Shown one piece after another: positions 39,910 through 48,071 of a stretch of 50,519 bases of DNA (within the stretch, counting starts at the first letter, position 1; the number at the start of each line of letters is the position of its first letter). The DNA comes from Bryobacteraceae bacterium CoA2 C42 (GTDB lineage: Bacteria; Acidobacteriota; Terriglobia; Bryobacterales; Bryobacteraceae): NCBI GenBank assembly GCA_019931245.1, contig JAINDL010000053.1, positions 1 to 50,519 of the forward strand. The letters are read 5' to 3'. The notes under the pieces were generated by a model. It made no database searches and was not told where the DNA came from. It saw only the letters and a list, made by a program, of their open reading frames with translations. Made by a program: the position numbers and the translations under genes.

Positions 39910-41725
39910 CGAAGCGGGCAGCCTGCGGCGCGGCGCGTGGCGCTACTTTCCGGTGGCGCCGGGGCGCATGGAGTTTGCGGTCGAGGTGCGGCGAGCGATT
40001 CTGGCCGCGCCGCCGAAGGTGGTGGCCGTGGAGTTGCCGCACGCCTGCGAGGAGTTTTATCTGCGGGCGATCGACCGGCTGCCGCAGTGCTCGGCGCTGA
40101 TGTATCCAACGCCGGACGCTTTTGACTTGGGCGAAGAGAGCTTCGTGTATGTGACGGTCGAGCCGTGCGACCCGTTTGTCGAAGCCGTGCGGACGGCGCG
40201 CGAGATCGGTGCCGAGGTGCTGTTTATCGAGCCCGCGCTGCAGGACCGGCCGCACGTGGCGGCGCAGTATCCGGACCCGTACGCCGTGCGGCGCCTTGGC
40301 CTTGAAAGGTACATCGAAGCCTACCGGCTGCAGCCGCCGCCCCGGGATGAGGACCTGGAGGCGCACGGCGCGGGGATGGCGTGGCGACTGCAGGGCGCCG
40401 ACCCGCTGGCCGAGACGCTGATCGTCGTCTCGTTCAACCTGCTCGACCCGCTGCTGGACGCCATGCAGATTCCGCAGGACGAGCCGGCCCGGCGCGTGAA
40501 GGCATCGCGCGTCCGCCTGGTCAATCCCGCCCCGGAGTGTCTGGCCGAGATCACCACCGAAATGCCCTACCTGCAGCAGCGCTATGAGCTGTGGCGCATC
40601 ACGGGCAAAGAGGACATCCTGATTGACCGGCAGCGGGCCAACTTCGACCTGCTGCGTGAGGCGGAGGCGCTCTACCACAAGAACACCGGCGACACGGTGA
40701 CGCACTGGCAGCGGCGGCTGCTGGCCAGATATACCCGGAACCTGGCGCGGCTGAGCCACGACCTGGTGGCCGGGCTGTTCGACGTGACCGTGGCCGCGCG
40801 GTCGATTGTCGACGACAACTACGGCTGGGAGGTGTGGGAACTGGCCAACAGGTATCCGGCCCAGAAGATTGCGCCCGACCTCGAGACGATGCGGATTCAG
40901 GCCGAGGATGTCTGGCTGAACACGAAGAAGATCCGCCTGCGGCGGCGCCTGCCGCGCCCCAAACAGCGGCTGATGCCGCGCGGGTTGAAGCAGCGCAAAA
41001 AAGAGAAAGAGCCCGGCGAGTGGAAGCACCGGCTGGACGGCGACTCCATCTGCAGCTATCCGCCCGAGGACCTTGCCATTGAAACCTACGGGCGCTTCTT
41101 GAAAGCGAAGGCCCGGAGCCTGGTGCACGAAGATCGGATGCGGGTGCAGGAGTTCTCCACCTCGCTGCTCGACGGCATCGACCTTCGCGAGACGCTGCGC
41201 AACTGGCACAAGGGCCGGGTCTACGTCCGCGAGGCGAACCGGATCGGCGGCGATGCCGGAGCGCTCTGCGTGATCTTTGACGAGGACGCGGAGGACCGCT
41301 ACAGCTACCTGGCCACCTGGCAGGGCGAACACCAGAACGAGTCCGATATGGCCTTCTACGCTACCAATCCGGCGGCCCACATCGTCGGCCCCGGAATCGG
41401 CCGGGCCGAGTACGGCGGTTTTCTGATGACGCTCCCGGCGCGCCGCATGTCCTACGTCTGGAGCGACCCGGACTACGCGTTCGCCGAATCGAAGTCAGAG
41501 ACGCTGCTGCTGGCGGCGCTCGACTACTCGGTGGAGCGGCACGTTGTCTACGTTGCCGCCAAGCCGCCGCGCAGCGTCTTCCGGTCGATCGCGGCGCGGC
41601 TGAACCGTTCGATCATTTATATCCCGATTGGCGCGCTTTCGAGCGATAAGGTGAAACGATTGCGCATCGTGCATATTCTTGATAGTTATGCACGCCGTAA
41701 GGAGGCCAAGGACTACATATGGTGA
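39893..41725 (+). CDS. Large uncharacterised protein, partner of the MoxR-like ATPase
   Basis: 610 residues starting at ATG 39893, inside the end of the ATPase gene. The N-terminal part ([63 protein letters not shown]) resembles the alternating strand-helix plan of TraB/ChaN/DUF5682-type proteins, which are known beside MoxR ATPases; this is a weak resemblance. The middle is helical and basic ([24 protein letters not shown]). The C-terminal 130 residues form another compact domain with many aromatic residues. No signal peptide or membrane segment is seen. I cannot assign a function. A conflict or stress role is suggested only by the partner. Confidence 0.6.
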
Positions 41726-42381
41726 TCGGACGGCGCTCGCTGCTTTGGACGCTGGCCGCCGGAACGCTTCCGGCGCAGACCGACAAGACCACGCTGGGAT
41801 TGAAGGAGATGCTGACGGTGGGCCTGAACAACGCCGTCAACCTTACGGGCCGCGTGGATGGCTTTTTTCGAAACGAAGCCATTAAAATTCTGATGCCGCC
41901 GAAGCTGCAGCCGCTCGTGCGGGGCTTGCAGATGATCGGCATGGGGGCGAAAATCGACGAGTTTGTTCTGTCGATGAACCGCGCCGCCGAACAGGCCGCG
42001 CCGCTGGCCAAGCCTATCTTCGGAAATGCCATCAAGACCATCAACTTCGACGACGCCCGCGGCCTGCTGACGGGCGGCGAGACGGCGATTACCGACTTTT
42101 TCCGCAAGAAGACCTACGATCCGCTGGCGGTGGCCTTCCGGCCGCCGGTGGGCGAGGCGATGGGACAGGTGGGCGCCACGCGGCAGTACAACGAACTGGT
42201 GGGCCGCTTCCAGAAGATTCCGTTTGCCGCGAAGCTCGAGGTGATGAACATCGAGGAGTACGTGGTGGGCAAGGCGCTCGACGGCCTGTTCTACATGGTG
42301 GCGCAGGAAGAAAAGCAGATCCGGAAGAACCCGGCGGCGCGGGTGACGTCGGTGCTTAAGGACATATTCGGCAGACGGTAA
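41719..42381 (+). CDS. DUF4197 family protein
   Basis: 220 residues. The start ATG overlaps the previous stop by 7 nt. A short export leader ([17 protein letters not shown]) precedes a helical domain: [69 protein letters not shown], and [36 protein letters not shown] at the end. This is the DUF4197 pattern, a periplasmic protein of unknown function often of 220-240 residues. Its 3' end overlaps the convergent methyltransferase gene by 26 nt. Confidence 0.85.
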
Positions 42382-43006
42382 GGCCATCGCCGAGGGGCAG
42401 CAGCGAGAGGTCGATGCGGGGGTCGGCCTGGAGTTTTTTGTTGAGGGCACGGATGGCGAGGGTGTCGGCGTCCTGCTTGGCGGGGTTGATGACGTCGCCG
42501 TGCCAGAGGGTGTTGTCGATGAGGATCAGCCCGCCGGGGCGGACGAGTTCGAGGCAGCGTTCGTAGTAGGCGTCGTAGTTGACCTTGTCGGCGTCGATGA
42601 AGGCGAAATCGAAGGGCCCGGTGAGGGTATTGAGGGTTTCGAGGGCGGGGGCGAGGCGGAGGTCAATCTTGTGGGCGACACCGGCCTCCTGCCAGTACGG
42701 GCGGCCGAGGGAGGTCCACTCGTCGCTGATGTCACAGGCGACGACCTGGCCGTCGGCAGGGAGGGCGAGAGCGGTGATGAGGGCGCTGTAGCCGGTGAAG
42801 ACGCCGATTTCGAGGGTGCGGCGGGCGCCGGTGAGGCGGAGGAGGAGTTGCATGAACTGGCCCTGTTCGGGGGTGATTTGCATGATGGCGCGGGGGTGGG
42901 CGGCGGTTTCGGCGCGGAGTCGGGCGAGGAGGGGGTGGTCGCGGAGGGAGGCTTCTCGGAGGTAGTGGCAGAGGGGGGCGGTCATTTCGATGTGGGCGGA
43001 GGACAT
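42356..43006 (-). CDS. Class I SAM-dependent O-methyltransferase
   Basis: 216 residues of the family-3 O-methyltransferase type (COMT/CCoAOMT-like). SAM-binding motif [27 protein letters not shown], the metal-binding [23 protein letters not shown], and [17 protein letters not shown] are all present. It usually methylates a catechol or another hydroxyl in a metal-dependent way. A leaderless-type start is suggested by TAGCCT 7 nt before the ATG. It converges on the DUF4197 gene with a 26-nt overlap. Confidence 0.92.
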
Positions 43007-43654
43007 GGGAACTAGGCTAGCGCAGTGGGGGCGGGTGGGACACCGGGACTCCCGAAGTCTCAGCGGATCATCACAGCGAACGACTTACATCGCGATCGAA
43101 ACTGATAAGCTCCAGGCTCAATGTCCGTGTCAGACTGCCAAGGCTAAAAAAAGATACATTTGAAGTACATGGTGACAGCTTTGCGAACTGCGCTGACGGT
43201 CACTATTGCGATTGCCATTAATTCCCAGATTGGCTGAGGTTGGGGTGACATAGTCTGAGCCGGAGGGAATCATTGCGGACAAGGACCTCAGCTGAAGTCC
43301 TCTTTGAGAGAGATCCTGACGACCTCCATCGAAGCGAATGCCAAAATCGCCCAGATGGACAGCCGCAGATGCCGAGTCTGCGCTGATCCGTGCGGGTGGG
43401 TGGCGGCGTCAACTGTTTTGTGTAAACGGCCAGAGTGTTGGTCAACTTCTCGTTGGCGCTTCTCGTTGGCGCCGAAGCGGCGGAGGGGGAACCGGACGCA
43501 GCGCGGGGATGCTGATTGAGGGGAGCCAGCGCACATCGGCAGACAGCGATTTGTGGCCGGTCCCCATTTTTCACCGCCGGCCGGCGAAATTCCTGTAACC
43601 GACTGGCCGGCATCGCCGTCCAGGTGACGGTAGGGCGCATGATGGCCCTGCGAA
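43007..43654. other. Intergenic region without a recognised gene
   Basis: Short open frames occur on both strands, but none has a start with a ribosome site, and none resembles a known protein. A 13-nt unit (CTTCTCGTTGGCG) is repeated exactly in tandem at 43446-43458 and 43459-43471. A -10-like TAGCCT at 43019-43014 belongs to the methyltransferase. Base use here is less G-rich than upstream, and the region separates the resident genes from the SAM-riboswitch cassette. Confidence 0.5.
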
Positions 43655-43755
43655 AACATCAAGAGTGGCGCGAGGGTTCTGACCCTTTGACCGCCCGGCA
43701 ACCTGGCCCCCGCAAGCCAAGGTGCCAAGGTCAGCCCGGAAACGGGAACGATGTG
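43655..43755 (+). promoter_or_regulatory. SAM-I (S-box) riboswitch
   Basis: The order and spacing fit the S-box aptamer. P1 pairs ACATC (43656-43660) with GATGT (43750-43754). AAGAG and AGGG follow on the 5' side. P2 pairs CTGACC (43679-43684) with GGTCAG (43729-43734). The core CCCGGCAACC is at 43694-43703, followed by the P3 hairpin and GGTGCCAA (43721-43728). P4 is CCCG-GAAA-CGGG (43735-43746) with a GNRA loop. These match the SAM-I consensus (AUCAAGAG, AGGG, GGCAACC, GGUGCCAA). Known S-box elements turn expression off when SAM is bound. The first gene of the cassette starts about 65 nt downstream. Confidence 0.9.
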
Positions 43756-43803
43756 GCAAGTGGCGGCAATCCCCGCGCCACCCCCTTCTCGTCAGACTTC
43801 GTG

Positions 43804-43825
43804 CCCGAAGGACAACACCCTTGGG
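43804..43825 (+). promoter_or_regulatory. Possible ribosome-site-masking hairpin
   Basis: CCC (43804-43806) and AAGG (43808-43811) can pair with CCTT (43819-43822) and GGG (43823-43825). This would hide the GAAGGA ribosome site and the TTG at 43821. It is a candidate expression platform acting on translation; another stem, GTGGCG/CGCCAC, lies at about 43761-43782 upstream. How the two compete with the aptamer is not determined. Confidence 0.35.
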
Positions 43826-45233
43826 CCGAAAACGTATTGCCCCCCCATCCGCATCCCTTCTCTCCCCGCTCGGCATCGTTGGCATGGGTTCGGTGGAACC
43901 CGCCATCCTCGCCGCACTCATCAACGCCGACCCGCTGCTGCTGATCGGCCCGCACGGCGTCGGCAAGTCCTATCTACTGACCCGGCTGGCCGCCGCGCTG
44001 GGGCTCTCCCATCGGCACTACAACGCCAGTCTGCTGAGCTTCGATGACCTGGTTGGTTACCCGCTCCCCAATGCCAGCGGCTCACTCGAATATGTTCATA
44101 CGCCCTCCTCCATCTGGGGCGCTCAGGCCGTTTTTCTCGACGAGATCTCGCGCTGCCGGCCGGAGGTGCAGAACAAACTGTTCTCCATTGTCCACGAACG
44201 TCGCGTCCAGGGCCTTCCGCTCCCTGGCCTCGAGCACCGGTGGTCGGCCATGAATCCCCCGTCGTCCGGGGAGGATGCGACGCTTTACTCCGGGGCCGAG
44301 GCTCTGGACGCCGCCCTCGCCGACCGCTTCGCGTTCCTGGTCGAAATTCCCGACTGGCAGGAACTCCCCGCCGATCTCCAGGAGCAACTCATCCGTAGCG
44401 AGGACAGCGCGCCACCATCGTCCGATCTTTCCGCCCAAGTTGCCCGCGGACGTACGCTGGCGGCAGCGTTCCGAGCCAGTCACAGCCAATCCCTGGCCGG
44501 TTACATCCGCCTGGTGTGCGCCACGCTCCGCCCGGCCAAGCTCACGCTGAGCCCCCGCCGCGCCGTCATGCTCCTCCGCAACGTGATTGGGGTCCACGCT
44601 GCCCGCGTCCTCCTCGATCCCAACGCCACGATGGAGGGCTCAGCGTGGGTCGCGCTCCGCCACTCCATTCCCCAACGAGCCACGGGGGAGACCGTCCCGG
44701 AGGTCGCCCTCCTCACCGCGCACAAGGAGGCCTGGAAACAGACCCACATCGAGGCGGGCAGTCCGTTGGGGCTTCTGTTGGCCGAACCGGACCCGCTGCG
44801 GCGAGCGCTCCTGGCGGTCCGTCTTGACAAGATCAGCCGTCAGGAGCTTTCTTCCGTGGTGGCGGATTCTCTGGCGGCGCTCCCGCACGGGGCCCGGCAT
44901 GCGCTGGCGACCCATCTGATGGAGTCCGGCGCGGCCGGGCGTCTGGCCGCGGCGGTTGCGCAGCAGTGCGCCGAGTGGTACGCGGTCGTTGCCACGGCCC
45001 AAAACCTCCGTGAGGTGGTCTCCTCCGGCTCGGTTCGACATCGCGTCTGGCATCACATCGTTGGCGTAATCGCCCGGTTCCCCGACGAAGAAGCCGCCCG
45101 CACGAACCTGCTGGTGGGCCTTTTCGCTCAGAACACGATCCAGGTGGAGGGCGATGTTGAGCGTATCCTGAGGCACTGGCAGGAGGCTAACGCACTGATC
45201 GGCGGCGGCGGCATCGATGGCGGTGTTCGATGA
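43821..45233 (+). CDS. MoxR-type AAA+ ATPase of the SAM-riboswitch cassette
   Basis: 470 residues from TTG 43821, which has GAAGGA 9 nt upstream. The ATG at 43884 has no ribosome site and would remove the conserved GIVG region at the start of the fold, but remains possible. Walker A is G43-P-H-G-V-G-K-S50 and Walker B F105-L-D-E108. The loop RHYNASLLSFDDLVGYPLP and PSSGEDATLYSGAEALDAALADRF are typical of MoxR proteins that partner with DUF2201/VWA proteins. The C-terminal half is a helical lid. It is the first gene of the cassette, and its stop overlaps the next start by 4 nt (GATGATG). Probably a hexameric remodelling ATPase acting on, or with, the VWA protein. Confidence 0.85.
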   Translation: MGRKRIAPPSASLLSPLGIVGMGSVEPAILAALINADPLLLIGPHGVGKSYLLTRLAAALGLSHRHYNASLLSFDDLVGYPLPNASGSLEYVHTPSSIWGAQAVFLDEISRCRPEVQNKLFSIVHERRVQGLPLPGLEHRWSAMNPPSSGEDATLYSGAEALDAALADRFAFLVEIPDWQELPADLQEQLIRSEDSAPPSSDLSAQVARGRTLAAAFRASHSQSLAGYIRLVCATLRPAKLTLSPRRAVMLLRNVIGVHAARVLLDPNATMEGSAWVALRHSIPQRATGETVPEVALLTAHKEAWKQTHIEAGSPLGLLLAEPDPLRRALLAVRLDKISRQELSSVVADSLAALPHGARHALATHLMESGAAGRLAAAVAQQCAEWYAVVATAQNLREVVSSGSVRHRVWHHIVGVIARFPDEEAARTNLLVGLFAQNTIQVEGDVERILRHWQEANALIGGGGIDGGVR

Positions 45234-45640
45234 TGCTGCACAACATGTCGGCGCCCCATCGCAGCACCATCAGTCATACGTCCGCCCCTGGCGCGACGCG
45301 CTGCCGCCGGCTGGTTGTGCAGTGGACGCAGACTCCCCGTAAGCCCGCTGCGCAGAGAGTTCTGACGCTGCTCACGGGAGCCGCCTCGCGCCACGCCGCC
45401 GCCGACCTGCGCCGTCTTATCCAGCAGCACGCGCAATCCTTACCCTGGCCCGGCGCTCTGCTCGTCACCAGTCAGGCCGGGCCAGAGGACCCGGTTTGCG
45501 AGGACCTGCTGACCATCTGCACCGTTCTGGCCAAGTCCTCCCCCGTGGTCTATCTCCGCGACCGGGAGCCTGACCTCGACCGGATCGCCCCGAACCTGCG
45601 GGTGGTGCTGCAGATTCCCCTCAACTGGAGCGTCCGATGA
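45230..45640 (+). CDS. Small protein of the SAM-riboswitch cassette, unrecognised
   Basis: 136 residues between the AAA+ and the VWA genes, overlapping each by 4 nt, so it is a real part of the operon. Nothing familiar is seen. The N-terminal third is basic with several His, Ser and Thr (for example APHRSTISHTSAPG). From about residue 40 the sequence alternates helix and strand: QRVLTLLTGAASRHAAADLRR, then GALLVTSQ, CEDLLTICTVLAKSSPVVYL and LRVVLQIPLNWS. This could be a small Rossmann-like domain. There is no signal peptide or membrane segment. It may be an adaptor or substrate for the ATPase. A possible second ATG at 45245 would shorten it by five residues. Confidence 0.65.
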   Translation: MMLHNMSAPHRSTISHTSAPGATRCRRLVVQWTQTPRKPAAQRVLTLLTGAASRHAAADLRRLIQQHAQSLPWPGALLVTSQAGPEDPVCEDLLTICTVLAKSSPVVYLRDREPDLDRIAPNLRVVLQIPLNWSVR

Positions 45641-46971
45641 GCCTCGCCAACCAGATTCTTGACGCCTTTCCGAGCGGCAACTACGGCATCCTCGCTCTTC
45701 TTCGTCTGATGGACATTATCGAATCGACTGACATCGAAACCGCCTCGATCGAATGCCGGGATCTCCCGGTGCTTCGCATCAACCCGCACTTTGTGGCGAC
45801 CTTCGCCAGTACGCCGGGCCGGCTGCTGATGCTCGTGCTCCACGAACTCCATCATGTCTTGCTCGGCCATACCCGTCTGTTCCGGCGCATCACGCCGCTC
45901 GACAATCTTGTGTTCGACGCCGTCATCAACGCACTGCTTTGCCGCATGTTCCCAAGCCGGGAATACACGTCCCTTTTCACAGGCTTCTACAGTGCCCGGC
46001 GTTTCCCCGAGTGTCTGCTGCGCCCGCCGGACCACTGGCGCCCGGCGGTACCGGCGGCCATCCCGGCGGCGCTGCGGGGCAAGGAGCTGGCCGGCCTGCA
46101 ACCGCTTTACCGCGCGCTTTACTCCGAGCAGGGCGCGGATTACCATCAGCTCTACGGCGCCCTTAAAAAAGCGGCGCCGCTACAGGGTGTGGCGTGCCGT
46201 CTTCTCGGTAGCCACGGTGAGGAAATCGGGGAGCTCGATGGTGCGATGCGCGAGGCCGTCCGGGCGATTGTCGAGCACTGGCCCCAGCCCCCCAATCCGA
46301 TCGCCGGTCGCTCGTGGGCGAGTATCCTGCGGGAGGAAGCGATTTCGCTGACCCGGGTTCCCTCTAACCGCGAGCGGCTCAGCGCGCTCTTGCGCCGCAT
46401 TGCCCGCCCCGGCGCGGGGACCGGTACTCGCCGCCAGCCCGCGCCGGCCCCTTCCGTTTCGCCGCTGCCCACGCACGACCGCCGAGCGATCGTCTTGCGC
46501 GCGCTTGGTGTTCCTCCTGTTCTGTACGCGCAGGAGATCCTCTGGCCCGGCCGGCGGGGAATCGAGCCAGTTCACGTGTACGTCGATGTGAGCGGCAGCA
46601 TCGGGGATGTGAAAGGCGCGCTGTACGGGGCGGTCCTGGCCTGCCGTCATCTGGTGTACTCTCGCGTCCATCTCTTCTCGACGACGGTTCACGACATCAG
46701 CCTGGAGGAGCTCCGCCGGGGTGTTTGCCGTTCCACCGGCGGTACGTCGATCGAATGTGTGGCGGCCCACATGCAGGCCCACGCCGTTCGTCGCGCCGTG
46801 ATCCTGACTGACGGCTATGTTGGCGTCCCCGGCGAAACGGCCGGCCGGACTCTCGACGCGGTTCATCTTGGCGTAGCACTGACGCCGGACAGCAGCCATT
46901 GCCCCAGCCACCGCGACGACCTCGGACGCTTCGTCGATGTCTGGACGGAACTCAAGGAATTCTCCGCATGA
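45637..46971 (+). CDS. DUF2201-like protein: HExxH metallopeptidase region and VWA domain
   Basis: 444 residues. Near the N-terminus is H69-E70-L-H-H73 followed by LLGH78, a zincin-like site (HExxH with a later His). The C-terminal third is a von Willebrand A domain with MIDAS D317-V-S-G-S321, STGGTSIE near 367 and ILTDGYVG near 390. These two parts are the known plan of DUF2201 proteins, which pair with MoxR-type AAA+ ATPases. The start overlaps the small gene's stop by 4 nt, and its stop overlaps the next start by 4 nt (ATGA). A Pro/Arg/Thr-rich linker sits around residues 265-285. Likely a metal-dependent platform recruited by the ATPase; the target is unknown. Confidence 0.85.
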   Translation: MSLANQILDAFPSGNYGILALLRLMDIIESTDIETASIECRDLPVLRINPHFVATFASTPGRLLMLVLHELHHVLLGHTRLFRRITPLDNLVFDAVINALLCRMFPSREYTSLFTGFYSARRFPECLLRPPDHWRPAVPAAIPAALRGKELAGLQPLYRALYSEQGADYHQLYGALKKAAPLQGVACRLLGSHGEEIGELDGAMREAVRAIVEHWPQPPNPIAGRSWASILREEAISLTRVPSNRERLSALLRRIARPGAGTGTRRQPAPAPSVSPLPTHDRRAIVLRALGVPPVLYAQEILWPGRRGIEPVHVYVDVSGSIGDVKGALYGAVLACRHLVYSRVHLFSTTVHDISLEELRRGVCRSTGGTSIECVAAHMQAHAVRRAVILTDGYVGVPGETAGRTLDAVHLGVALTPDSSHCPSHRDDLGRFVDVWTELKEFSA

Positions 46972-48071
46972 CAAACTCTCTTTTCCCCGCTGAAGCTGTC
47001 TTCCCTGGCCATCCCGACAAGATCTGCGATGCCATCGCCGATTCCCTCGTCGCGGAGGCCGTCCGCCGCCAGTCCCGGGCTCTCTGTGGCATTGAGGTCG
47101 CGGTGCACCGCGGGAGCGTTTTTGTGACCGGACGGATCGCCTGCGATGAGGCCGCGACGATTCCCGTGGACTCGATTGTCCGCGAGTGTTTTCGAACCGC
47201 CGGTTACAGTCGCGATTGGGGTCCGGCGCCGGAGGACCTTCAGGTTGGCACGGAGCTTTGCCTTGGCCCCCTTTGCGAGAGTGAATCGAGCTTTCGCCGG
47301 TTTTCCGACGATCAGTCGATTGTGACCGGCTACGCGATCGACTCGCCCGGGTCGAACTACCTGCCCCCGGAGCATTGGCTGGTCTGTCGATTGTCCCGGC
47401 GGCTGTGCCGGCTGCGGGAAGAGCATTCGGCCCTGCGACTTGGCCCCGACGGCAAGGTCGTGCTGATCTGGGATTCGATTCGTGGTGCGGTGGCAGGGCT
47501 CAGTGTTTCGCTGCAACAGGCCATCGGAGGGGATGAGATTGCGCTGCACCGGGCGGTGCGCCAAGCGGTTGCTGGCGAACTGGAGGAGGGCGCGCAACAA
47601 CATCCTGGCCTCGATCCGCGACCGCCGGAGGAGATCCACGTCAATGGCGCGGGGAATTTCGAGGTGGGCGGCACGGAAGGGGACAATGGCCTGAGCGGGA
47701 AGAAGCTGGTGGTGGACGCTTACGGGCCACGGGTGCCGATTGGGGGCGGCGCCTTGAGCGGGAAGGACTTCTATAAAGCGGATCGCGCCGGCGCGATCCT
47801 GGCGAGGCGGGTAGCGAAGACCGTCGTGCAGAGCGGTGCGGCCCGGGAGTGTCTGGCGACACTGGCGATCTTCCCGGGCGATACGGATTTCCGTCTCCTC
47901 TCCTTGCAGGCTCCCGGCACGGAGCTGGAACCCGGGCGCTGGGCGAAGCTGATTGATCTCTCGCTCGAATCCGCCGGAGACCGTTATGCCGGGACGGCGG
48001 ATCTGGCGGCGATTGCGCGCTATGGCCATTTCAACAGTGCGGAGCGACCTTGGGAGCCGATTCTGTTTTGA
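46968..48071 (+). CDS. Divergent S-adenosylmethionine synthetase homologue
   Basis: 367 residues, start ATG overlapping the VWA gene by 4 nt. MetK motifs are plain: G14-H15-P-D17-K18-I, E43, D115-D-Q near DDQSIVTGYA, G-P-D161-G-K163, G-G-T-E-G-D239-N-G-L-S-G-K245-K246, G-G-G-A-L-S-G-K266-D, K270 and D272, and the C-terminal YGHFNSAERPWE. These are ATP-, triphosphate-, Mg- and K-binding positions. But the residue aligned without gaps to E. coli Glu55 (GGEIT), which holds methionine, is Arg56 (TGRIA), and the flexible active-site loop after about residue 98 is some nine residues shorter with no clear Gln98. R244 is Lys. It may make SAM from a different amine or sulfur substrate, or another product. 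Confidence 0.85.
   Translation: MTNSLFPAEAVFPGHPDKICDAIADSLVAEAVRRQSRALCGIEVAVHRGSVFVTGRIACDEAATIPVDSIVRECFRTAGYSRDWGPAPEDLQVGTELCLGPLCESESSFRRFSDDQSIVTGYAIDSPGSNYLPPEHWLVCRLSRRLCRLREEHSALRLGPDGKVVLIWDSIRGAVAGLSVSLQQAIGGDEIALHRAVRQAVAGELEEGAQQHPGLDPRPPEEIHVNGAGNFEVGGTEGDNGLSGKKLVVDAYGPRVPIGGGALSGKDFYKADRAGAILARRVAKTVVQSGAARECLATLAIFPGDTDFRLLSLQAPGTELEPGRWAKLIDLSLESAGDRYAGTADLAAIARYGHFNSAERPWEPILF

Follow-up and report, generated by a model that had tools for sequence, protein, structure and literature searches.

A SAM-riboswitch-linked MoxR/VWA cassette, usually with an altered MetK relative, recurs in many bacterial phyla

The main methyl donor of the cell, SAM, is made by MAT, one of the most conserved enzymes known. 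What, then, is a SAM riboswitch doing at the head of a run of genes for a MoxR-type ATPase, a small protein, a VWA protein and a divergent relative of MetK? This arrangement lies in a 50,519-nt stretch of DNA from Bryobacteraceae bacterium CoA2 C42, the whole of which is here called the window. An earlier note knew of no described system so composed and saw a candidate for a new one, and our literature searches, which covered open-licence PMC papers, likewise found no described system of this kind. Sequence comparisons lead us to conclude that the cassette is a predicted SAM-switched, ATP-driven machine, usually with an altered MetK relative, that recurs in many bacterial phyla; the altered relative may act on a different substrate.

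The S-box aptamer and the four overlapping genes that the earlier note had read from the letters were both found. The SAM-I (S-box) riboswitch aptamer occupies 43653-43757 on the plus strand, where RF00162 matches over its full model length with 57.2 bits against a gathering cut-off of 44.4, so that the element passes a covariance-model check and SAM binding is predicted. It is the sole Rfam match above cut-off within the window, and no other SAM-I match was found in the 6.07-Mb genome. The leader from the aptamer to the first ATG (43758-43883, plus strand) is a possible expression platform. In MFE folds of the longer leaders, the P1 strand 43656-43660 is left unpaired and 43665-43689 pairs with 43757-43781; the longest fold differs in that part of this pairing is made with 43860-43871. 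No U-tract terminator was found in the leader, and a promoter and terminator scan of the region gave 3 terminator-like sites where 3.1 are expected, none of them inside the leader.

Four plus-strand genes follow, linked by three 4-nt ATGA overlaps and each closed by one stop: a MoxR-type AAA+ ATPase (43884-45233, 449 aa), a small conserved protein (45230-45640, 136 aa), a VWA protein (45637-46971, 444 aa) and a MAT-fold paralogue that we call MetKd (46968-48071, 367 aa). The start of the MoxR gene is uncertain; relatives have similar sequence just 5' of the ATG at 43884, and the next in-frame start, a GTG at 43722, falls within the aptamer. Upstream, DNA synteny between the window and five genomes of the same genus ends at 43024 (43038 in one), which places the left edge of a lineage-specific segment, without strand, at 43024-43652.

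The first and third proteins have the make-up of a MoxR AAA+/VWA pair. The window MoxR matches AAA_5 with 43.9 bits (cut-off 22), and its Walker A and B, sensor and arginine residues are conserved across 65 aligned sequences, obtained from 84 loci tried with the window included. The neighbouring VWA gene encodes MIDAS residues D317, S319, S321 and D392 in all 69 sequences aligned from the 84 loci tried, and T370 in 68 of them. A zincin-type motif, HExxHxxLGH, precedes the VWA domain at residues 69-78 and is present in 69/69. The motif is typical for DUF2201_N, and in the cassette protein it could be structural. The order of HExxH and then a VWA domain is that of DUF2201, and Pfam matches of the window protein to DUF2201_N (14.6 bits, cut-off 23.2), DUF2201 (14.7, cut-off 26.4) and VWA_CoxE all fall below the cut-offs. 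At E<=0.01, 49 aligned VWA sequences gave matches to DUF2201_N in 44 cases, VWA_CoxE in 36 and DUF2201 in 5; a PDB profile search with the VWA alignment gave 0 matches.

The small protein belongs to no known family: none of the Pfam, NCBIfam, PADLOC and PHROG models matches it, and with the family alignment a Pfam search was uninformative and a PDB profile search returned two chance-level matches. Homologues occupy the same place in related cassettes. It has an N-terminal LxHNMSxPP-like motif, the HN motif occurring in 51/62 cassettes with MetKd and 0/7 without, in a count that classed 69 of 77 rows, drew four of the seven negatives from one genus, and scored near-variants such as GNMS and ANMS as absent. 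The small protein is proposed as an adaptor. We rejected the idea that MetKd adenosylates the Met of this motif, because in several MetKd-bearing cassettes, inspected by eye, that residue is replaced by Ser, Ile, Val, Tyr or Leu.

The neighbourhood itself recurs, and neither this check nor the covariance-model one refuted the earlier note. A scan of genome contigs confirmed 184 VWA relatives, and locus statistics were taken from the best 80, among which six duplicate loci that the home-order set had already contributed. Among these best 80 of 184, MoxR is present in 73 and MetKd in 67, of which 66 are on the same strand and <=400 nt behind the VWA match; the record titles span at least six phyla, the organism names being those of contig titles, some of which look wrong. 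Members also occur in records of named strains, including Limnohabitans sp. 2KL-51 and Quisquiliibacterium transsilvanicum DSM 29781, so tests should be practicable. Over 39 loci, the distances for VWA, MoxR and MetKd are strongly correlated (r = 0.89-0.91), with 0/2000 permutations as high for each pair; by this measure the three proteins diverge together. Chance juxtaposition of genes and aptamer was rejected, since synteny and riboswitch are conserved in unrelated phyla. Cassettes of some lineages lack MetKd, and the core is therefore riboswitch, MoxR, small protein and VWA protein; of the composition given in the earlier note, this core is constant, whereas MetKd is usual yet dispensable.

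The aptamer recurs with the genes. Of 59 cassettes with >=600 nt of upstream sequence, 46 have a SAM-I or SAM-I/IV aptamer no more than 1.3 kb upstream of MoxR, 45 of them found on the MoxR strand by two purpose-built models and one more (L105) by Rfam; the 59 are partly dependent, as L110 repeats L039 and one genome (G137) contributes two. In 837 kb the models gave 73 matches at E<0.01, a place matched by both being counted twice, and 72 of these sit <=1.3 kb upstream of MoxR on its strand. Of the aptamers that the two models recover, 11 had served to build R1 and 8 to build R2, and matches at E 0.01-1, three of them off-place (L023, L021 and L063), were left uncounted. Rfam alone found aptamers above cut-offs in 22/40 loci given, plus the window; some planctomycete leaders fall below these cut-offs, and some cassettes carry tandem copies. 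No aptamer was found in 13/59 cassettes, nine searched with Rfam as well and four with the built models only. Eight cassettes without MetKd (L023-L027, L068, L069 and L094) retain the aptamer. In the home order, a SAM-I aptamer was found in 10/200 genomes, nine of which are the cassette genomes, with the aptamer located at the cassette. Exclusivity of SAM-type riboswitches to cassettes was rejected outside this order: among 396 genomes drawn from across the phylum, 34 had an RF01725 match, and 4/39 places lie <=3 kb upstream of a detected VWA gene.

Is MetKd simply a SAM synthetase? The label of divergent MetK is right, because it scores 154 bits against TIGR01034, whose equivalog cut-off is 309.4; its N and C S-AdoMet_synt domains score above cut-off and the M domain below, and PDB MAT structures match most of its length. 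A canonical-type metK, 29% identical to MetKd, lies on another contig of the same genome. For residue comparisons, 70 loci were matched, 55 complete sequences kept and 9 more divergent ones added, giving 64; the comparison set of 24 held 17 canonical, 4 bacterial and 3 phage MetKs, 3 of the 20 fetched canonical stretches having been dropped on a motif filter. Residue numbers are those of the E. coli crystal (UniProt minus 1), with human equivalents by constant offsets of 15 and 20.

Eight core catalytic residues are kept, and most methionine contacts have changed. H14, D16, D118, K165, D238, K245, K265 and D271 are invariant in the 55 complete sequences, and these eight positions are kept in 64/64. 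In contrast, E55, Q98 and S99 are kept by 0/64 MetKd, against 24/24, 24/24 and 22/24 of the comparison set, so that the Glu55/Gln98 methionine-binding pair of canonical MetK is gone. E55 is R in 52/55 complete sequences, and position 302 is P in 64/64 where the comparison set has I in 24/24. The Q98 loop aligns ambiguously, with Cys in 47/55 in one alignment and a gap in the other. A third methionine contact, D238 (human Asp258), is retained in 64/64. Around the nucleotide, R244 is K in 55/55 complete sequences (60/64 overall), R229 occurs in 0/64 MetKd and 19/24 canonical sequences, and position 227 is altered too; as 227 and 229 (human S247 and R249) help place ATP, the nucleotide of MetKd might differ as well. 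Four divergent members have E55G, K269H and F230L.

A branch with 100/100 support separates MetKd from the canonical sequences, in a midpoint-rooted tree that drew long-branch warnings. This branch and the changed pocket led us to reject the view that MetKd arose by a simple, recent duplication of the housekeeping gene metK. Identity of MetKd with the phage-type MetK was rejected as well, because the three fetched phage MetKs, 30-33% identical to MetKd, retain E55 and Q98. Canonical metK was detected in 30/34 cassette genomes, three times as fragments, and in all 9 cassette genomes of the home order; in the other 4/34, MetKd is present and canonical metK was not found, reflecting either MAG gaps or substitution.

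Taken together, these features make us favor, tentatively and at somewhat less than even confidence, a reading in which SAM shortage makes the cassette produce a MoxR/VWA activase for MetKd or the ordinary MAT, with MetKd adenosylating a target other than free methionine. Leaders with SAM-I or SAM-I/IV aptamers normally reduce expression once SAM is bound, so that the cassette should come on as SAM falls. In NorQ/NorD, RavA/ViaA and CbbQ/CbbO, a MoxR ring acts with a VWA partner to remodel a client protein or to activate it. The cassette would be a horizontally moving, SAM-responsive unit in which the aptamer heads an operon-like run of MoxR, small protein, zincin-motif/VWA protein and usually MetKd. 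Where present, MetKd would be the client, tethered through the motif of the small protein; where it is absent, the client would be the ordinary MAT or another SAM-pathway enzyme. The identity of the client is a guess. From its residues, MetKd would still move adenosyl from a nucleotide triphosphate, though not onto free L-methionine posed as usual; with Arg mostly in place of the Glu that grips the methionine amino group, no gating-loop Gln and a Pro facing the S-methyl, its acceptor is probably a thioether without the amino group or one held in another way, and the product would be a SAM-like sulfonium. A more specific version, possible though we would not wager on it, is that MetKd is a natural adenosyltransferase that in many phyla, under SAM shortage, makes an undescribed SAM analogue from a non-methionine thioether, with MoxR, VWA and the small protein loading, activating or policing it.

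The strongest alternative, which we consider rather unlikely, is that MetKd makes ordinary SAM as a backup synthetase with its own activase, MoxR, VWA and the small protein clearing dead-end complexes from MetKd or the housekeeping MAT much as CbbQ/CbbO does for Rubisco. Shut-off by SAM suits a SAM-supply gene, and the intact eight core residues and Asp238, together with the four genomes in which only MetKd was seen, agree with this. On the side of the favored reading, human MAT contacts the methionine N through E70 and its O through Q113, and S114A leaves 2.5% activity (PMC6850014); in mouse MAT2A, Q113N/I117A lowers the methionine kcat 131-fold (PMC11240257). On the side of a backup synthetase, Q113A alone keeps 75.6% of SAM production in human MAT (PMC6850014); given this and the kept Asp258, loss of the Gln by itself proves little. 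The S-methyl is faced by I303 in the E. coli enzyme (crystal 302), where a smaller residue relieves product inhibition (PMC6152220), so the Pro of MetKd could also mark a better SAM synthetase. Against a backup synthetase stand the joint absence of E55, Q98 and S99, the canonical metK detected in most cassette genomes, and the aptamers retained where MetKd is missing.

The earlier note had also suggested defence. A SAM-linked cassette stands, by synteny and aptamer; the defence idea lacks support so far. In such a stress or defence module, loss of SAM, be it to phage enzymes that cleave it or to heavy methylation, would derepress the cassette, the AAA+/VWA/zincin machine would strike an invader or host target, and MetKd would make a signal or poison. 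We judge this improbable. The riboswitch would sense the loss of SAM, and sporadic occurrence (9/200 genomes of the home order) at a variable site, the synteny shared with five relatives ending at 43024-43038, is compatible with defence, though not specific to it; in one cassette (L019) a resolvase gene adjoins. However, the PADLOC-DB 2.0.0 matches for MoxR were weak and confined to the ATPase core (E >= 3.9e-6), with none at E<=1 for the other three proteins, a search of plasmid and phage records gave 0 matches to the VWA protein at E<=1e-5, and the cassette has no recognisable effector. Parts of three of the cassette's four proteins do match phage-protein profiles. Viral origin was rejected: of two viral_contigs matches, L111 is weak and the small protein of L110 is identical to that of bacterial L039.

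Least probable of all is a device in which MoxR, VWA and HExxH act in the manner of NorQ/NorD or a chelatase, inserting a metal or a nucleoside cofactor into an enzyme of the SAM pathway, with MetKd giving adenosyl. NorQ/NorD offers a precedent (PMC9976466), and HExxHxxLGH is present in every aligned VWA protein. Recurring neighbours, however, included no recognised metalloenzyme gene, most clusters being judged by eye, and the motif may have a structural role.

If a widespread MAT paralogue has indeed rebuilt its methionine pocket around an unchanged catalytic core, a natural SAM analogue or a new handling of methionine would be indicated. For MoxR/VWA machines, which are poorly understood, the cassette offers a strong clue to a client, because the riboswitch names the relevant metabolite. 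Like NorQ/NorD, RavA/ViaA and CbbQ/CbbO, it has a MoxR-type ATPase gene closely before a VWA gene with MIDAS residues, and by analogy client remodelling is presumed; unlike them, it adds an intervening small protein, a zincin-motif N-domain and control by a SAM riboswitch, with a MAT paralogue in most cassettes. The DUF2201 proteins (putative metallopeptidase and VWA-like) share the N-terminal HExxH domain and C-terminal VWA, whereas the window member scores below Pfam cut-offs and the cassette comes with a SAM riboswitch and, in most cases, MetKd. The bpMoxR-vWA-beta-propeller ternary systems (PMC7159879) also combine MoxR with VWA, but the window MoxR scores 22.6 against 27 bits for bpMoxR and the four proteins include no beta-propeller; a term search of the main text of PMC7159879 found neither "riboswitch" nor "DUF2201". 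The aptamers qualify by score as RF00162/RF01725 riboswitches in the loci counted above, and the literature searches of open-licence PMC papers found no description of MoxR, small-protein or VWA genes as SAM-riboswitch targets. MetKd shares with TIGR01034 MetK the fold family and eight core residues, and differs in its half-cut-off score, the replaced E55, Q98, S99 and I302, the mostly Lys R244, the lost R229, its place across the 100/100 branch and its usual coexistence with canonical MetK. Finally, MetKd matches phrog_1569 (PHROG 1569, phage-borne MetK) over its length with 163 bits, and a methyltransferase gene lies near metK in two of the three fetched phages, whereas all three phage copies, with E55 and Q98 in place, sit on the canonical side of the tree.

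The window corresponds to contig 49 of a genome of 6.07 Mb, and its cassette opens with a SAM-I aptamer at 43653-43757 on the forward strand (57.2 bits; the cut-off is 44.4), the sole SAM-I match found in that genome. Four ORFs follow on the same strand: a MoxR ORF at 43884-45233 (Pfam AAA_5, 43.9 bits); a small-protein ORF at 45230-45640, for which a Pfam scan gave no match and which has a homologue family in other cassettes; a VWA ORF at 45637-46971, matching VWA_CoxE, DUF2201_N and DUF2201, all below the Pfam cut-off; and an ORF at 46968-48071 matching the N and C domains of Pfam S-AdoMet_synt, here termed MetKd. An earlier note had described an S-box aptamer, four genes joined by three 4-nt overlaps and a divergent MetK. 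The covariance-model score confirms the first, ATGA overlaps at each junction of the run from 43884 to 48071 the second, and the NCBIfam score, 154 bits where true MetK requires 309.4, the third. A second, canonical-type metK lies on another contig of the genome and is 29% identical to MetKd. The phage-protein profiles phrog_1297 and phrog_1314 match the window's MoxR (2.5e-13) and part of its VWA protein (3.7e-12), respectively.

Among 200 genomes of the window's order, the VWA gene was present in nine, at ten loci with the order MoxR, small protein, VWA. MetKd came next at five of the ten (four genomes, one bearing two cassettes). Five genomes of one genus, g11, carry MoxR, small protein and VWA, and their sole MetK match is canonical-type. 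MetKd was found in 4 of the 200 genomes, every one a cassette genome. A SAM-I aptamer, searched for with Infernal's stricter filters, was found in ten; nine of these are the cassette genomes, with each aptamer at its cassette (Fisher p about 9e-15, kinship ignored). The tenth genome, G061, has the only aptamer of the 200 genomes that lies away from a cassette (L132:5017-5116; G061:C22:34016-34115). It precedes a small ORF near what looks, by eye, like a run of SUF-type genes.

Genome contigs were scanned under profile guidance, which yielded 184 confirmed VWA relatives; the best 80 of these were kept as loci. Their titles include Acidobacteria, proteobacteria, Planctomycetota, Gemmatimonadetes, Chloroflexi (including Tepidiforma), Verrucomicrobiales, Polyangiaceae and others. 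The conserved synteny proposed for the four families was found for MoxR in 73 and for MetKd in 67 of these best 80 loci (one MetKd, that of L085, is a fragment only) and did not extend to MetKd in g11. In 66 of the 67, MetKd lies no more than 400 nt behind the VWA match. Seven of the 13 loci lacking MetKd stop within 300 bases past the VWA match (L041, L049, L072, L080, L082, L099 and L102), and in L082 the start of MetKd is visible at the contig end. The L102 genome belongs to g11 and is without MetKd; the genomes of L068, L069 and L094 have only a canonical-type metK match, and a genome-wide search of that of L089 gave neither type. The VWA gene was present in 15 of 396 genomes drawn from the phylum, including divergent cassettes that retain the order MoxR, VWA, MetKd. 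In two cassettes a canonical-type metK stands directly behind MetKd (L101:7461-8564 and L104:4669-5766). Some record titles are doubtful (L102, L046, L071, L108), with a home-family cassette entered as 'Arcobacter sp.' and MAG contigs as 'Bordetella parapertussis'.

The cassette has evolved as one unit and is mobile. Across 39 loci, the pairwise distances measured on VWA, MoxR and MetKd correlate at 0.89-0.91, for each pair above all of 2000 permutations, and a resolvase gene adjoins the cassette in G057. Five genomes of the same genus that lack a VWA match share DNA synteny with the window only up to 43024 (43038 in one), and the window's cassette thus occupies a variable segment. Comparison with the same-genus genomes revealed no right edge of this segment, and its base composition is not unusual. 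At the left border are genes for an O-methyltransferase (Methyltransf_3, 42356-43006) and a DUF4197 protein (41719-42381), a block also kept in relatives without a visible cassette. A family that looks HD-hydrolase-like by eye occurs near five cassettes (L082:1655-2263, L075:9516-10013, L094:9219-9764, L060 and L063); the two members scanned had no Pfam match at E<=0.01.

SAM-I-type leaders normally turn genes off when SAM is plentiful. Two covariance models made from the aptamers of the initial loci, R1 for SAM-I/IV and R2 for SAM-I, were applied to 62 sources, and matches at E<0.01 no more than 1.3 kb upstream of MoxR were scored for the 59 cassettes having at least 600 nt upstream. A match was in place in 45 of the 59, or 46 with L105, which has an Rfam match (66.5 bits). 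Counting a place matched by both models twice, 72 of 73 counted matches lay within this distance; the other is SAM-I/IV-like (L071:7360-7471, 36.4 bits) and far downstream of the cassette. No aptamer was found in 13 of the 59 cassettes; the Rfam scan covered nine of these, likewise without a SAM match, the other four being L041, L060, L097 and L101. By Rfam alone, SAM-type aptamers exceeded the cut-offs in 8/8 home-family loci and in 7/12, 5/11 and 2/9 of other loci (22/40 together). Eight planctomycete leaders score below Rfam's cut-off; alignments of four show the CAUC, AGAG, GCAACC, GGUGC and GAUG blocks kept and one arm diverged. Cassettes lacking MetKd can also retain the aptamer (L023-L027, L068, L069 and L094).

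Genome G137 carries one cassette with a SAM-I aptamer and a second cassette, proteobacterial in type by the MetKd tree, that has two SAM-I/IV aptamers. This points to joint inheritance of cassette and riboswitch, although G137 is a MAG with 4% contamination and the contig of its second cassette could be misbinned. The aptamers are not exclusive to cassettes: SAM-I/IV (RF01725) matches occurred in 34 of the 396 phylum genomes (G000 counted), and only 4 of the 39 places listed lay upstream of, and no more than 3 kb from, a VWA gene found in that draw. In a betaproteobacterial-type cassette, a DUF3293 gene (L083:4136-4567, 65.3 bits) separates a SAM-I/IV aptamer from MoxR; the genes in this position in four further cassettes of that type (L040, L049, L063 and L108) cluster with it, the profile score coming from L083 only.

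MoxR motor motifs are kept across 65 aligned proteins. In 69 VWA proteins, aligned from 84 loci tried, H69, E70, H73, L76, G77, H78, D317, S319, S321 and D392 never vary, and T370 is kept in 68. The small proteins form a genuine family that shares an LxHNMSxPP-like motif at the N-terminus and, at the C-terminus, a block close to LxKxSxxVWLRxKxPxL. Of 62 cassettes that have MetKd, 51 show a strict form of the N-terminal motif, versus none of seven without, a hint rather than proof that it docks MetKd, since four of the seven are from one genus.

In 55 complete MetKd sequences the eight core catalytic residues are invariant; Arg replaces E55 (E. coli crystal numbering) in 52 of them, and Lys replaces R244 in all. 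A wider comparison set 64 MetKd (the 55 plus nine divergent) against 24 canonical and phage MetKs. E55 and Q98 are each present in 24/24 of the latter and 0/64 MetKd, S99 in 22/24 and 0/64, and position 302 is Ile in 24/24 and Pro in 64/64. A shorter stretch, LCLGPLxxGE-like in most sequences printed, replaces the Q98 loop segment. According to the studies cited, human MAT Glu70 (E55) contacts the methionine amino N and Gln113 (Q98) its O, S114A leaves 2.5% of SAM production (PMC6850014; PMC7271947), E. coli I303 (crystal 302) faces the S-methyl group (PMC6152220), and mouse MAT2A Q113N with I117A lowers the methionine kcat 131-fold (PMC11240257). Three points weigh the other way: human Q113A alone retains 75.6% of SAM production (PMC6850014); the third residue in contact with methionine, D238 (human Asp258), is unchanged in 64/64 MetKd; and the nucleotide side is altered. 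R229 is lost in 64/64 and T227 is mostly Ala, so that the nucleotide may differ too.

A 100/100 branch separates the 64 MetKd from the 24 canonical sequences, with long-branch warnings within MetKd. The best profile match of MetKd is the phage family phrog_1569 (163 bits, 1.9e-47, full length). Phage MetKs (n=3) are 30-33% identical to MetKd, yet they retain E55 and Q98. In phages L140 and L141 a metK with canonical methionine-binding residues lies near a DNA methyltransferase gene; that of L140 is annotated as a peptidase. Of 34 cassette genomes tested, 30 gave a canonical metK, fragmentary in three of them; the four with MetKd alone are MAGs.

At the sequence level, then, the cassette is linked to a SAM-sensing RNA, its motor and MIDAS residues are intact, and its MAT core is kept with the methionine pocket changed. 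MoxR/VWA pairs remodel client proteins (PMC9976466). We propose that the MoxR/small-protein/VWA machine would activate MetKd, or the ordinary MAT where MetKd is missing, and that MetKd would adenosylate a substrate other than free methionine. Retention of the aptamer in cassettes lacking MetKd argues that the machine itself probably matters to the SAM economy.

The earlier note knew of no system of this composition, and our search of the open-licence literature likewise found no description of MoxR or VWA with a SAM riboswitch, SAM synthetase or metK. In PMC545781 a MoxR-like/CoxE-like pair appears as iron-controlled, with MetK and S-boxes listed separately. Weinberg et al. 2010 (PMC2864571) defined the SAM-I/IV variants, and its supplements may mention the cassette in passing. 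As far as these searches of the open-licence literature go, the parts are known, and the combination, with its rebuilt MAT pocket, is new.
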